This document shows positions 6,423 through 50,041 of a stretch of 64,000 nt of DNA, in pieces. The notes beneath the pieces were generated by a model that was not told the DNA's origin, searched no databases, and worked only from the letters and a program-made list of their open reading frames with translations. This DNA comes from Yersinia bercovieri ATCC 43970 (GTDB lineage Bacteria > Pseudomonadota > Gammaproteobacteria > Enterobacterales > Enterobacteriaceae), in NCBI RefSeq assembly GCF_013282745.1, contig NZ_CP054044.1:3596001-3660000 (forward strand), read 5' to 3'. The position numbers were made by a program, and so were the translations under genes. Numbering within the stretch: position 1 is the first letter of the stretch; each line of letters begins with the position of its first letter.

Positions 6423-6547
6423 AAAAAAAATGCCGATGTTGAGACAACATCGGCATCGTAACAATTATGTGCTATGCAGTAATTCAAAAATAAAAGTATT
6501 ACAAATATGGAGCGCAACGCCCATCGCTTGACGTTGCATTCACCTGC
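6423..6547 (-). ncRNA. fnrS: FnrS small regulatory RNA
   Basis: On the minus strand, the segment starting at 6547 with GCAGGTGAATGCAACG and continuing GTCAAGCGATGGGCG, TTGCGCTCCATATT reproduces the E. coli FnrS 5' half as I remember it. The GAATTACTGCATAGCAC segment is also kept. It ends in a perfect 10-bp hairpin (6455-6446 with 6440-6431) and eight U residues. Length is about 124 nt, as in E. coli, where fnrS also lies beside zntB. FnrS is an Hfq-dependent anaerobic repressor of aerobic metabolism mRNAs including sodB. The linker between the 5' stem and the conserved 3' part differs from E. coli. Confidence 0.93.
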
Positions 6548-20082: not shown

Positions 20083-21087
20083 ATGAGTGAGCAATTAGAT
20101 AACCTGTTGGGCGAAGCCAACTCTTTTGTTGAAGTGCTGGAGCAAGTTTCTGGGCTGGCAAAACTGAATAAGCCCGTATTGGTGATTGGTGAGCGCGGAA
20201 CCGGCAAAGAGCTGATTGCCCATCGCCTCCACTATCTATCTGAGCGCTGGCAAGGGCCGTTCATCTCCCTGAACTGCGCGGCGCTGAATGAAAATCTACT
20301 TGATTCGGAACTATTTGGCCATGAGGCTGGTGCCTTTACCGGTGCGCAAAAACGCCATCTGGGCCGCTTTGAGCGGGCTGACGGCGGGACACTGTTTTTG
20401 GACGAACTGGCAACCGCGCCCATGCTGGTGCAGGAGAAATTATTGCGGGTCATTGAGTATGGGCATCTGGAGCGGGTTGGCGGGAGCCAGCCGTTGCAGG
20501 TGGATGTGCGGCTGGTGTGTGCCACCAATGACAATTTACCCGCGTTAGCCGCGGCCGGTAAATTTCGCGCCGACTTGCTGGATCGTCTGGCTTTTGATGT
20601 GGTGCAACTGCCGCCGTTACGTGAGCGCCAGCAAGATATTATGCTATTGGCTGAGCATTTTGCTATCCAGATGTGCCGAGAGCTGGGTTTACCGCTTTTT
20701 CCCGGTTTTACGCCGCTGGCGCAAGCGCAATTGCTGGCCTATCACTGGCCGGGCAATGTGCGTGAACTGAAGAATGTGGTGGAGCGCTCGGTGTATCGCC
20801 ATGGCGACAGCATTCAGCCGCTGGATAATATTATTATCAACCCCTTCGCCGCCCGGCAGAGTGCTGATAGTGGTATTGCCGTGGCTCCTGATAGCGAAAC
20901 CTCAAGCCCCCTCCCGGCACTCCCCATCGACCTTAAGCAGTGGCTGCATAACCGTGAGCAGCAGATGTTAAAGCACGCATTAGAGCAGGCGCGATTTAAT
21001 CAGCGCAAGGCGGCGAGTTTACTGGGGCTAACTTATCATCAGTTACGCGGCATGTTGAAAAAACACGCGATCTTAACTGGAGAGTGA
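20083..21087 (+). CDS. pspF: PspF, sigma-54 activator of the psp operon
   Basis: A 334-residue AAA+ enhancer-binding protein without a receiver domain. Walker A is GERGTGKE (about 38-45), the sigma-54 contact loop GAFTGA is intact, Walker B is GGTLFLDE, and the C-terminal Fis-type helix-turn-helix is in AASLLGLTYHQLRGMLKK. PspA holds it inactive. The start at 20083 gives MSEQLDNLLGEANSF as in relatives; a TTG 15 nt upstream is not favoured. It is divergent from pspA. Confidence 0.96.
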   Translation: MSEQLDNLLGEANSFVEVLEQVSGLAKLNKPVLVIGERGTGKELIAHRLHYLSERWQGPFISLNCAALNENLLDSELFGHEAGAFTGAQKRHLGRFERADGGTLFLDELATAPMLVQEKLLRVIEYGHLERVGGSQPLQVDVRLVCATNDNLPALAAAGKFRADLLDRLAFDVVQLPPLRERQQDIMLLAEHFAIQMCRELGLPLFPGFTPLAQAQLLAYHWPGNVRELKNVVERSVYRHGDSIQPLDNIIINPFAARQSADSGIAVAPDSETSSPLPALPIDLKQWLHNREQQMLKHALEQARFNQRKAASLLGLTYHQLRGMLKKHAILTGE

Positions 21088-21151: not shown

Positions 21152-21257
21152 AAAAAAAAGCCAGCACCCGAGCTGGCTTAAAAACACTGGAAGCAATGTG
21201 AGCAATGTCGTGCTTTCCTGTCAAAAGCCTAAAACTATTGGCTTTATCCCGAAGAGC
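21152..21257 (-). ncRNA. ryhB: RyhB-family iron-responsive small RNA
   Basis: The minus strand contains the diagnostic RyhB core GAAAGCACGACATTGC followed by TCACATTGCTTCCAGT, then a terminator whose arms AGCCAGC and GCTGGCT enclose a 6-nt loop, with nine U residues. The predicted start is near 21257, giving about 105 nt. The 5' part differs from E. coli but can form a stem (AAAGCC with GGCTTT). Yersinia carry two RyhB copies by published work; this one lies between pspF and sapA. RyhB represses iron-using proteins when iron is low. Confidence 0.95.
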
Positions 21258-21262
21258 AAACG

Positions 21263-21292
21263 AATGATAATAGTTATCAATAGCAGTTGCAA
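21263..21292 (-). promoter_or_regulatory. Fur-regulated promoter of ryhB
   Basis: A -35 TTGCAA (21292-21287) and -10 TATCAT (21269-21264) are 17 bp apart on the minus strand. A Fur box core, GATAAT-A-GTTATC, lies at 21266-21278 within a longer palindrome (21263-21280) covering the -10. Fur with iron would block transcription. Confidence 0.87.
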
Positions 21293-21454
21293 ATGGTTTA
21301 TTGAGAATTTTTCTCATTACCACACTGATTATGATGGAATTATCATCAATTGCTGCAACAACCAGCAGACGGCGCAGTTGTTTTGCTCAATGGATTGGGA
21401 GCGGTGCCAGATTACGGTACACTGAGAGTATTGCTTACTTACTGCGAAGCGTTT

Positions 21455-23107
21455 ATGCGTGCTTTACTCATTTGGATGTTGTCGCTGGCCTGCCTTGCGA
21501 CCCCAGCGCTGGCGCAGTCTGCTCCGGCGGCCTTAGCTGATCAACCGCTGCCAGATATCCGCCAGCGTGGATTTGTCTATTGCGTCAGTGGGATACTAAA
21601 TACCTTTAATCCGCAGATGGCCAGTAGCGGATTAACCATCGATACACTGGCGGCACAACTCTATGACCGCCTGTTGGATGTCGACCCCTACACCTATCGG
21701 CTGATCCCTGAGTTAGCCGAAAGCTGGCAAGTGCTGGATAACGGAGCAACTTACCGCTTTCATTTACGTAAAGATGTGCCGTTCCAGACCACTGATTGGT
21801 TTACCCCCACTCGGATGATGAACGCCGATGACGTGATATTCAGTTTCCAGCGGGTACTTGACTCCCAGCACCCCTACCATGGCGTTAATGGCGGCGAATA
21901 TCCCTATTTCGATAGCCTGCAATTTGCTGACGCGGTGCAGAGTGTCAAAAAGCTGGATGACTACACCGTTGAATTTAAGCTAAAAGCCCCGGATGCCTCA
22001 TTCCTCTGGCATTTGGCGACCCACTATGCACCGGTGCTCTCTGCCGAGTATGCCGATGTGCTGACCCAAAAAGGTCGCCAGGAGCAGATCGACCGCGAAC
22101 CCGTGGGAACAGGCCCCTTCTTGTTAAACGAATATCGGTCTGGGCAATATATCCGCCTGTTCCGTAACAGTGACTACTGGAAAGGCTTACCGCGTATGCC
22201 GCAGGTGGTTATCGATCTGGGGGCCGGTGGCACTGGCCGCTTATCCAAGTTGCTGACCGGTGAGTGTGATGTGTTGGCCTATCCCGCCGCCAGTCAACTG
22301 TCCATTCTGCGCGATGACCCTCGCCTGCGCCTGACCCTGCGCCCAGGGATGAATGTGGCCTATTTGGCGTTCAATACCCGTAAACCGCCGCTCAATGATC
22401 AGCGGGTGCGGCAGGCGATTGCTTTATCGATTAACAACCAACGATTGATGCAATCAATTTATTACGGCACCGCAGAAACTGCCGCCTCTATTTTGCCTCG
22501 TGCATCATGGGCTTATGATAATCAGGCGCAGGTGACCGAATATAATCCGGAAAAAGCCAAAACGATCCTAAAAGAGTTAGGGTTAAGCAAATTGCAGCTC
22601 AATTTGTGGGTGCCGACGGCATCGCAATCCTATAATCCCAGCCCGTTGAAGACCGCAGAGCTGATTCAGGCGGATCTGGCGCAAGTGGGCATCACGGTCA
22701 ATATCGTGCCGGTTGAAGGCCGCTTTCAGGAAGCCCGCCTAATGGAGATGAACCACGATCTGACCCTCTCCGGCTGGTCAACCGACAGTAACGACCCGGA
22801 CAGTTTCTTCCGCCCACTGTTGAGCTGTGCAGCAATTCGTTCGCAAACAAACTATGCTCACTGGTGTGACCCACAGTTTGATGAATTACTGCAAAAAGCA
22901 CTACGCTCTCAGCAACTGTCGTCGCGTATTGAATATTATCAGCAGGCTCAGCGTATTCTGGAGCAGCAACTGCCGCTGCTGCCGTTAGCTTCATCGCTGC
23001 GGCTACAGGCTTACCGTCATGATATCAAAGGGTTGGTATTAAGCCCGTTTGGCAATTCATCTTTTGCTGGCGTGTTCCGTGAGAGCGAAGAGGGCAAAAA
23101 ACCATGA
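21455..23107 (+). CDS. sapA: Periplasmic peptide-binding protein SapA
   Basis: A 550-residue periplasmic solute-binding protein (SBP family 5) of the Sap ABC transporter, linked to antimicrobial peptide resistance. Residues 1-20 are a signal peptide ending PALA. The mature protein begins QSAPAAL and continues with the conserved [14 protein letters not shown]. The start at 21455 was chosen for the signal peptide; the longer upstream frame runs through the ryhB promoter region. It heads an operon in which sapB overlaps by four bases. Confidence 0.94.
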
Positions 23108-48680: not shown

Positions 48681-48940
48681 TTCTTCAACTCACAGCCAGC
48701 ACTGCTGTTGGCTGTGAGTACCCCACTCGCCAAACTTCTGTTATCCCCGTGATCTATCTTGGCTAATGCCAATGCCATACTAATACTGTGGTTATAACTG
48801 TCATTTCTGTCGAAAATTGTTAAGATTATACCCACAACAAAAATACAACAATTAAGCTTTTAACCGCTCTTCGCCACATCATGGCCTGCGGCTATTGATG
48901 GGATTTGAGGAGCAAACACCCTGAGCAACCCGAAAGGAGA

Positions 48941-48950
48941 GAGCTATGTC
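48941..48950 (+). promoter_or_regulatory. Predicted RyhB pairing site over the sodB start
   Basis: GAGCTATGTC includes the sodB ATG and can pair with the RyhB segment GACATTGCTC (minus strand 21209-21200) with nine of ten bases matched. In E. coli RyhB blocks sodB translation at the same place. Confidence 0.7.
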
Positions 48951-49524
48951 TTTTGAATTACCGGCATTACCTTATGCACAAAATGCACTGGAACCCCATA
49001 TCTCAGCTGAAACGCTGGAGTACCATTACGGCAAACACCATAATACCTATGTGATTAACCTCAATAATCTGATTAAAGATAGTGAGTTTGCTGACAAGAC
49101 GCTGGAAGAGATAGTAAAAACCTCCAGCGGTGGTCTCTTTAACAATGCGGCCCAAGTCTGGAACCATACTTTCTACTGGCACTGTCTGTCACCAAATGGT
49201 GGTGGTGAGCCGACCGGTAAAGTGGCTGATGCCATTAATCAATCATTTGGTTCTTTTGCTGAATTTAAAGCACAATTTACCGATGCCGCAGTGAAAAACT
49301 TTGGCGCAGGTTGGACTTGGCTGGTTAAAAAAGCCGATGGCACGCTGGCGATTGTGAGTACATCTAATGCGGCAACCCCGCTGACGACCACGGATAAACC
49401 GTTACTGACGGTGGATGTGTGGGAACACGCTTATTATATTGATTACCGCAATGCGCGGCCAAAATATCTGGAAAATTTCTGGGCGCTGGTTAACTGGGCA
49501 TTCGTTGAGAAGAATTTAGCCTGA
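48946..49524 (+). CDS. sodB: Superoxide dismutase [Fe]
   Basis: A 192-residue cytosolic iron superoxide dismutase. Metal ligands are H27 (LEYHYGKHH), the histidine in WNHTFYW, and the aspartate and histidine of [19 protein letters not shown] lies 5 nt before the ATG. Target of RyhB and FnrS in E. coli; both RNAs are encoded in this window. A hairpin terminator follows at 49573-49591. Confidence 0.97.
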
Positions 49525-49600: not shown

Positions 49601-49621
49601 TTTTACCGGCAAGCGGCTTAA

Positions 49622-49711
49622 TTAATTCATTACCGCCACGAAGCTAAAGGCAATAATCATCGCCAGCGCACCAACAGTCGTAATCAGCGACATTTTCAGA
49701 TTGGTATCCAT
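49622..49711 (-). CDS. ynhF: Small membrane protein YnhF
   Basis: A 29-codon gene on the minus strand. The product, starting MDTNLKMSLITTVG and continuing LAMIIAFSFVAVMN, is one transmembrane helix. GAGGAG stands 6 nt before the ATG. E. coli has a 29-residue single-helix protein, YnhF, starting MSTDLKFSLVTT, in the same place between sodB and purR. The match in length, pattern and position makes the call strong. Function is unknown. Confidence 0.85.
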   Translation of the reverse strand: MDTNLKMSLITTVGALAMIIAFSFVAVMN

Positions 49712-50041
49712 AAAAACTCCTCAGCCGGTCAGTTTGTCGTAGGGAAAAGGCACATAGTTAGTGTGTTAAAATATCTTCCCACAATTCAGAAAAAAAATCT
49801 TGTGCTCATTACGCACTTTATAACTTTGAATACCTCTTTCACTTTTCCTCCAGATCAGCCAAAATTCGCAGTTCATAACTGCATACCGACCAATAACGTC
49901 CAATAAATACTCTCAGACAACCAGCTGATTCCATTTTCCAGCCAATAACATGCTTCTGTCTGAGTGGTTTCGCGTCTGCAGGCAAACGATTAACATAATA
50001 CTTACCTACTGTAACAGGTGAGCTTAGGAGTCATTTTTTTT
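49712..50041. other. Divergent region between ynhF and purR
   Basis: The 330 bases hold the ynhF ribosome site, an A/T-rich stretch and the PUR box at 49980. No further gene is seen. Confidence 0.5.
49980..49995 (+). promoter_or_regulatory. Candidate PUR box upstream of purR
   Basis: AGGCAAACGATTAACA matches the PurR operator pattern ANGCAANCGNTTNCNT at ten of twelve fixed positions. It lies 47 bp before purR, which represses itself in E. coli. Confidence 0.65.

Follow-up and report, generated by a model that had tools for sequence, protein, structure and literature searches.

Is the RyhB-like sequence between pspF and sapA in Yersinia bercovieri ATCC 43970 a working member of its family, and is it switched on in the same way as the sibling copy elsewhere in the genome? 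RyhB is a well-known bacterial small RNA that is made when iron is scarce. We analysed the window, a stretch of 64,000 nucleotides in whose positions all window coordinates are given, together with the rest of the genome and the corresponding loci of relatives.

The RyhB copy between pspF and sapA

Positions 21217-21152 of the minus strand scored 86 bits with the Rfam RyhB model (RF00057; E 7.5e-15), for which the gathering score is 55, and the match spanned model positions 1-67 of 67, that is, the whole model. This covariance-model match confirmed the RyhB homologue with a conserved core that an earlier note had read from the letters. The canonical terminator that it had placed on the minus strand was found as well, as an 8-pair stem at 21179-21158 with a T run, and the limits that it had given for the feature, 21152-21292, were correct within a few bases. 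The gene and its neighbours are as follows.

20083..21087, plus strand: pspF, convergent with ryhB; Pfam Sigma54_activat and HTH_8; about 75% DNA match to E. coli pspF
21152..21258, minus strand: RyhB small RNA (RyhB2-type, pspF-sapA lineage); RF00057 match plus inferred 5' end
21158..21179, minus strand: intrinsic terminator stem-loop; 8-pair stem, then T run to 21152
21189..21213, minus strand: conserved RyhB core, the target-pairing region, with two CATTGCT repeats; invariant in 13 aligned Yersinia copies
21218..21258, minus strand: 5' domain, lineage- and genus-specific, with nested hairpin AAAGCC/GGCUUU in the consensus fold of 13 Yersinia copies
21455..23107, plus strand: sapA, divergent from ryhB; Pfam SBP_bac_5; 72.7% DNA match to E. 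coli sapA/sapB

The 5' end near 21258 was derived from the position of the -10 element, and the RNA would then be about 105 nt long. The alignment of 13 Yersinia copies leaves out Y. similis, whose copy lacks 9 nt of the core. Across the 13 copies the terminator stem kept 8/8 pairs, except for one gap, and the consensus fold consisted of a nested 5' hairpin, a core hairpin and the terminator. The 5' domain was similar within Yersinia, where it can fold as a hairpin, and its letters differed between genera. The window RNA folded at -30.2 kcal/mol with a z of -1.31, so that folding energy alone was not unusual and lent the gene no support. A two-sided change was seen in 1/27 pairs among the 13 copies, with a covariation term of only -0.24; the alignment was too conserved for covariation to bear on the pairing.

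The Y. bercovieri genome held two RyhB matches. The second adjoined genes for a GntR-type regulator, a pirin (yhhW) and a yhhY-like acetyltransferase, and no yhhX match was found in the stretch fetched around it. The window copy at pspF-sapA therefore does lie at a location other than the E. coli one, as the earlier note had it, while the second copy sits at gntR-yhhW-yhhY. When the two RNAs were compared, 91 of 113 columns were identical and the differences lay mostly in the 5' part. The diverged 5' domain may direct this RNA to a different set of mRNAs, as the earlier note proposed.

Both the location and the pair have counterparts in print. RNA-seq placed the ryhB of E. amylovora between pspF and sapA on the minus strand, in the arrangement '> < >'; it was listed among the Hfq-regulated sRNAs, and a second RyhB, Hrs15, lies elsewhere in the genome (PMC4070566). 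Neighbours, orientation and Rfam family are the same as for the window ryhB; the reported length is 140 nt, versus about 105 nt inferred here, and the two are likened by position, not by sequence. For Yersinia, RyhB1 is reported to lie in the same context as E. coli ryhB and RyhB2 at a distal one, the two having nearly identical cores (PMC4211561); in Y. pestis, iron deficiency is reported to induce RyhB1 and RyhB2, and Fur to regulate both negatively (PMC4585118). Y. enterocolitica is described as carrying both, and plasmid-borne RyhB1 as lowering fur mRNA (PMC10342277). Accounts differ on which RNA needs Hfq for stability, naming RyhB1 (PMC4211561, PMC4585118) or, in another, RyhB2. Like the genome studied here, those of Y. 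pestis, Y. pseudotuberculosis and Y. enterocolitica have two copies, one placed as in E. coli and the other distal, with reported lengths of 108-110 nt. The letters of the 5' domain vary by species, and we saw no difference in kind between the published RyhB2 and the window copy. The accounts used leave the distal site unnamed, so the match to RyhB2 is by elimination.

E. coli RyhB resembles the window copy in its core, its terminator and the Fur box at its promoter. It differs in its locus (gntR-yhhW-yhhX-ryhB-yhhY, as against pspF-sapA), in its promoter block and 5' domain, and in having no upstream palindrome at a score of at least 13/15. Salmonella resembles Yersinia in having a second RyhB in the genome, the RyhB-2 type. 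Many RyhB copies near neither pspF nor yhhW/yhhX/yhhY had a promoter block of their own, TGATAAAGATTATCTTTCTC..., and these are presumably of the Salmonella RyhB-2 type.

Judged by its sequence, the window gene is a genuine RyhB copy, of a kind and at a chromosomal position already published. By position, and by elimination given that the other copy is the one in the E. coli context, it would correspond to the published 'distal' RyhB2 of Yersinia. We are confident that it is a functional RyhB-family sRNA gene, predicted to be under iron and Fur control and orthologous to Yersinia RyhB2 and to E. amylovora ryhB. On this evidence the distal RyhB of Yersinia and its E. amylovora counterpart appear to share one locus, pspF-sapA, which is found in many genera of the family.

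For Y. bercovieri itself, Fur binding, the iron response, the use of Hfq and the targets are predictions. When iron is sufficient, Fe-Fur would occupy the operator over the -10 element and, probably, the upstream palindrome, and block transcription. When iron is scarce, Fur would leave, and an RNA of about 105 nt would be made that ends at the intrinsic terminator. Through its core, and most likely together with Hfq, this RNA would pair with mRNAs that encode iron-using proteins and reduce their expression, alongside the sibling copy at gntR-yhhW-yhhY.

Promoter, Fur box and upstream palindrome

A sigma-70-like promoter lies at 21293-21264 on the minus strand and can be read as TTTGCA-18-TATCAT or as TTGCAA-17-TATCAT. 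A promoter scan of a 391-bp stretch gave 3 promoter-like sites, versus a shuffle mean of 0.6, two of them being these alternative readings. The control elements are as follows.

21264..21269, minus strand: -10 element TATCAT; promoter scan
21279-21265, minus strand: 7-1-7 core TGATAACTATTATCA of the Fur box; sequence pattern
21266..21284, minus strand: Fur box GCTATTGATAACTATTATC, overlapping the spacer and the -10; 15/19 consensus positions
21288..21293, minus strand: -35 element TTTGCA; promoter scan; TTTACA in 37/45 distinct relatives
21302..21316, minus strand: Fur-like, nearly invariant palindrome TGAGAAAAATTCTCA, with 8 nt between it and the downstream -35; put forward as a second Fur operator

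The Fur box over the -10, which the earlier note had put at 21263-21280, was recovered within a few bases of that place, at 21284-21266, where it matched 15/19 positions of the Fur consensus. A score of 15 was reached at only 2 positions of the whole window, counting both strands; the other is 7824 (+). Across the genome, the pattern ATGAKAANNNTTMTCA was matched at 10 distinct places, the box among them, with 12 strand hits in total, versus 4 for a reversed control pattern. These places adjoined three hemin-receptor-type genes, genes for a ferrichrome/ferrioxamine-type binding protein and a siderophore-interacting protein, both ryhB genes, and a gpmA-type and a nupC-type gene, several of these ORFs being cut at the locus end and scoring under the NCBIfam cut-offs. 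The 15-mer TGATAACTATTATCA recurred at two other of the matched places, beside the siderophore-interacting protein gene and the gpmA-type gene.

Together with the palindrome, these elements make up a promoter block (palindrome - TTTACA/TTTGCA - Fur box - TATCAT) that is present in the window and whose definition was drawn from the pspF-sapA loci themselves, not from the literature. In a 19-bp form with up to 3 mismatches the palindrome occurred once in the window, versus 0.03 expected. At a score of at least 13/15 it was found in 26/27 loci of the pspF-sapA group and in 53/55 named SapA loci with a RyhB core, two sets that overlap in genomes. It was found at that score in 0/62 E. coli-type RyhB loci. 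The grouping was by neighbour genes, apart from three of the 27 loci that have no pspF in their stretch: L073 and L118, which were grouped as near sapA, and L202, which was grouped partly by its promoter block and is to that extent circular for the palindrome count. Of 27 further loci in neither group, 2 reached 14/15, namely L030, which is the same gene of genome G004 as L118, and L078.

For the column counts we took 130 loci and left out 25 without the core and 5 that scored under 12 (L093 and L188 of the pspF-sapA type; L252-L254 of the E. coli type), and the remaining 100 sites comprised 45 distinct ones. The distance from palindrome to -35 was 8 or 9 nt in 44/45 distinct sites. Weaker palindromes outside the pspF-sapA group were seen at L079 (12/15) and L096 (11/15), of the E. 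coli type, and a 14/15 one at the unclassified L078, all at a similar distance upstream of the RyhB core. Because of these palindrome-like copies, the proposed second operator may predate the lineage.

What binds the palindrome? The Fur operator is a 7-1-7 inverted repeat close to TGATAATNATTATCA; a count by eye found TGAGAAAAATTCTCA in agreement with it at 11 of the 14 defined positions. Among the variants, position 12 from C to A in 6/45 and position 4 from G to T in 1/45 both went towards the Fur consensus. The same genome also has a TGAGAA half-site, the half-G form, in AATGAGAATTATTATC, which precedes a ferrioxamine/ferrichrome-type receptor gene. From the direction of the variants, the Fur-type places in the genome and the half-G form, the palindrome at 21302-21316 is most likely a second Fur operator.

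The strongest competitor is a non-Fur regulator, for example an activator near -52, through which this RyhB copy would answer a second signal. Such a regulator would suit the conservation of the palindrome, which exceeds that of the Fur box over the -10; the symmetric form TGAGAANNNTTCTCA, which occurred at a single place in the 4.4-Mb genome, so that other Fur targets here do without that exact form; and the absence of a match at 13/15 or better from 62/62 E. coli-type copies. Yet the geometry is the 7-1-7 pattern of Fur, the departures at positions 12 and 4 lead towards and not away from its consensus, and the half-site is shared with the receptor gene, and we hold this alternative to be unlikely, though still a real contender. 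Two named candidates were rejected: an RcsAB site, since the 6-2-6 spacing of the RcsAB box does not fit, and a Zur site, which was considered because folE2- and CobW-type genes adjoin ryhB in some genera, and whose motif does not fit, while the palindrome keeps its distance to ryhB.

We put forward, tentatively and as a possibility somewhat short of an even call, that two operators control the pspF-sapA RyhB lineage: besides the known Fur box over the -10, a nearly invariant palindrome just upstream of the -35 that is specific to the lineage. If so, this copy and its E. coli-type sibling would have different iron thresholds, or this copy would receive a second input, and the siblings would differ in timing, on top of any difference in targets. 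A conserved second operator at one copy only would then be a testable reason why sibling RyhBs may switch on differently. The palindrome in front of the window ryhB is the new detail, and the rest of the locus is ordinary. The titles and abstract openings returned by our literature searches did not mention a second operator at ryhB, and it may be in print in Deng 2012 or in a paper on how Fur and the RyhBs of Y. pestis regulate each other.

Flanking genes and sapA

The SapA protein of the window had 91-97% amino acid identity to that of named Yersinia, and the DNA around sapA was about 78-86% identical to the named Yersinia loci. One further element belongs to this side of the locus.

21395..21423, plus strand: candidate sapA promoter block TTGGGA-17-TACACT; read by eye, not in the promoter scan

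In 13 Yersinia sequences this candidate block was conserved, and its distance to the sapA ATG was almost constant. It lay more than 100 bp from the Fur box, and the length of the spacer between was very variable among the 13 sequences.

The divergent layout, with a gap of about 197 bp from the inferred RNA start at 21258 to the sapA ATG at 21455, had led the earlier note to suggest that Fur bound in this intergenic region could also affect sapA, that is, repress it. This suggestion fared poorly. Besides the variable spacer within Yersinia, whole genes stand between ryhB and sapA in other genera: those for FolE2, a hexapeptide protein and a CobW-domain protein in the Serratia-type L119 (L119:2755-5429), ORFs resembling the FolE2 and hexapeptide genes in the Serratia-type L120 (L120:1932-3411; named by likeness to L119 alone), and a CobW-domain gene in Rahnella (L157:1575-2828). 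Where genes separate ryhB from sapA, the palindrome, the promoter and the RNA stay together, and the near-constant distance of the palindrome is to the ryhB promoter. Given the variable spacing and the inserted genes, control of sapA by Fur from this site appears unlikely as a general rule, and we regard repression of sapA as highly improbable.

On the other side, about 1.4 kb of extra DNA was seen between pspF and ryhB in a Yersinia locus (L121:1210-2600), with a similar gap in four others (L124, L125, L127, L129), and in Y. proxima the extra stretch held an ORF of 257 aa.

Distribution among relatives and other RNAs

We surveyed 79 genomes over the GTDB family, one per genus except two of Yersinia. 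RyhB matched in 50/79, and in 18/79, with the places set side by side by hand, it lay within about 6 kb of sapA, in all 18 on the opposite strand; pspF was within the fetched stretch in 16/18 of these. Among named SapA loci (the best 80 of 178), 55 of 80 had a RyhB core in the flank, again all opposite to sapA. The whole genome was searched for RyhB in 18 genomes of named SapA loci, 13 of them among the 25 misses. Some misses were copies beyond the flank with pspF adjoining, in Y. nurmii and two Serratia (L201, L206, L207), and the S. marcescens copy (L202), which has the same promoter block, lay where the sapA contig range ends. In 7/18 searched genomes (G084, G085, G087-G091) the sole RyhB match was at an E. 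coli-type locus by its neighbours, and for this reason the pspF-sapA copy appears to have been lost there.

Within the genus Yersinia, RyhB was found in 25/25 genomes, with two matches in 24/25. The remaining genome (G098; 4.0 Mb, 94% complete) had one match, with an E. coli-type promoter (L252), and its pspF-sapA copy seems to be missing. In one assembly of Y. similis, the pspF-sapA copy (L130:2530-2584, minus strand), short of the 9 nt of core noted above, retained one CATTGCT repeat and was counted as a miss because of the shortened core; it still scored above the Rfam cut-off (56.6 bits), with promoter and palindrome present.

Decay may therefore occur in the lineage, as the shortened Y. 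similis orthologue and the one Yersinia genome with a single match illustrate, and the window ryhB could be asked to be another such copy, without function. Its core, terminator, promoter and both operator sequences are intact, however, and the core is invariant in the 13 aligned Yersinia copies, so that we give this idea hardly any credence.

The gene sodB, a RyhB target, also lies in the window. In a crude duplex screen, on energies alone and without an accessibility term, sodB gave -16.9 kcal/mol, and the 10 best of the 57 ORFs of the window gave stronger values. A SodB 5' UTR element (RF02775) matched at 48858-48975 (+) with 118.8 bits, the sodB start being at 48946. Two other RNAs were seen in the window, both on the minus strand: an FnrS-type sRNA (RF01796) at 6428-6547, with 120.8 bits, and an STnc550 match (RF02081) at 49619-49990, with 76.7 bits.
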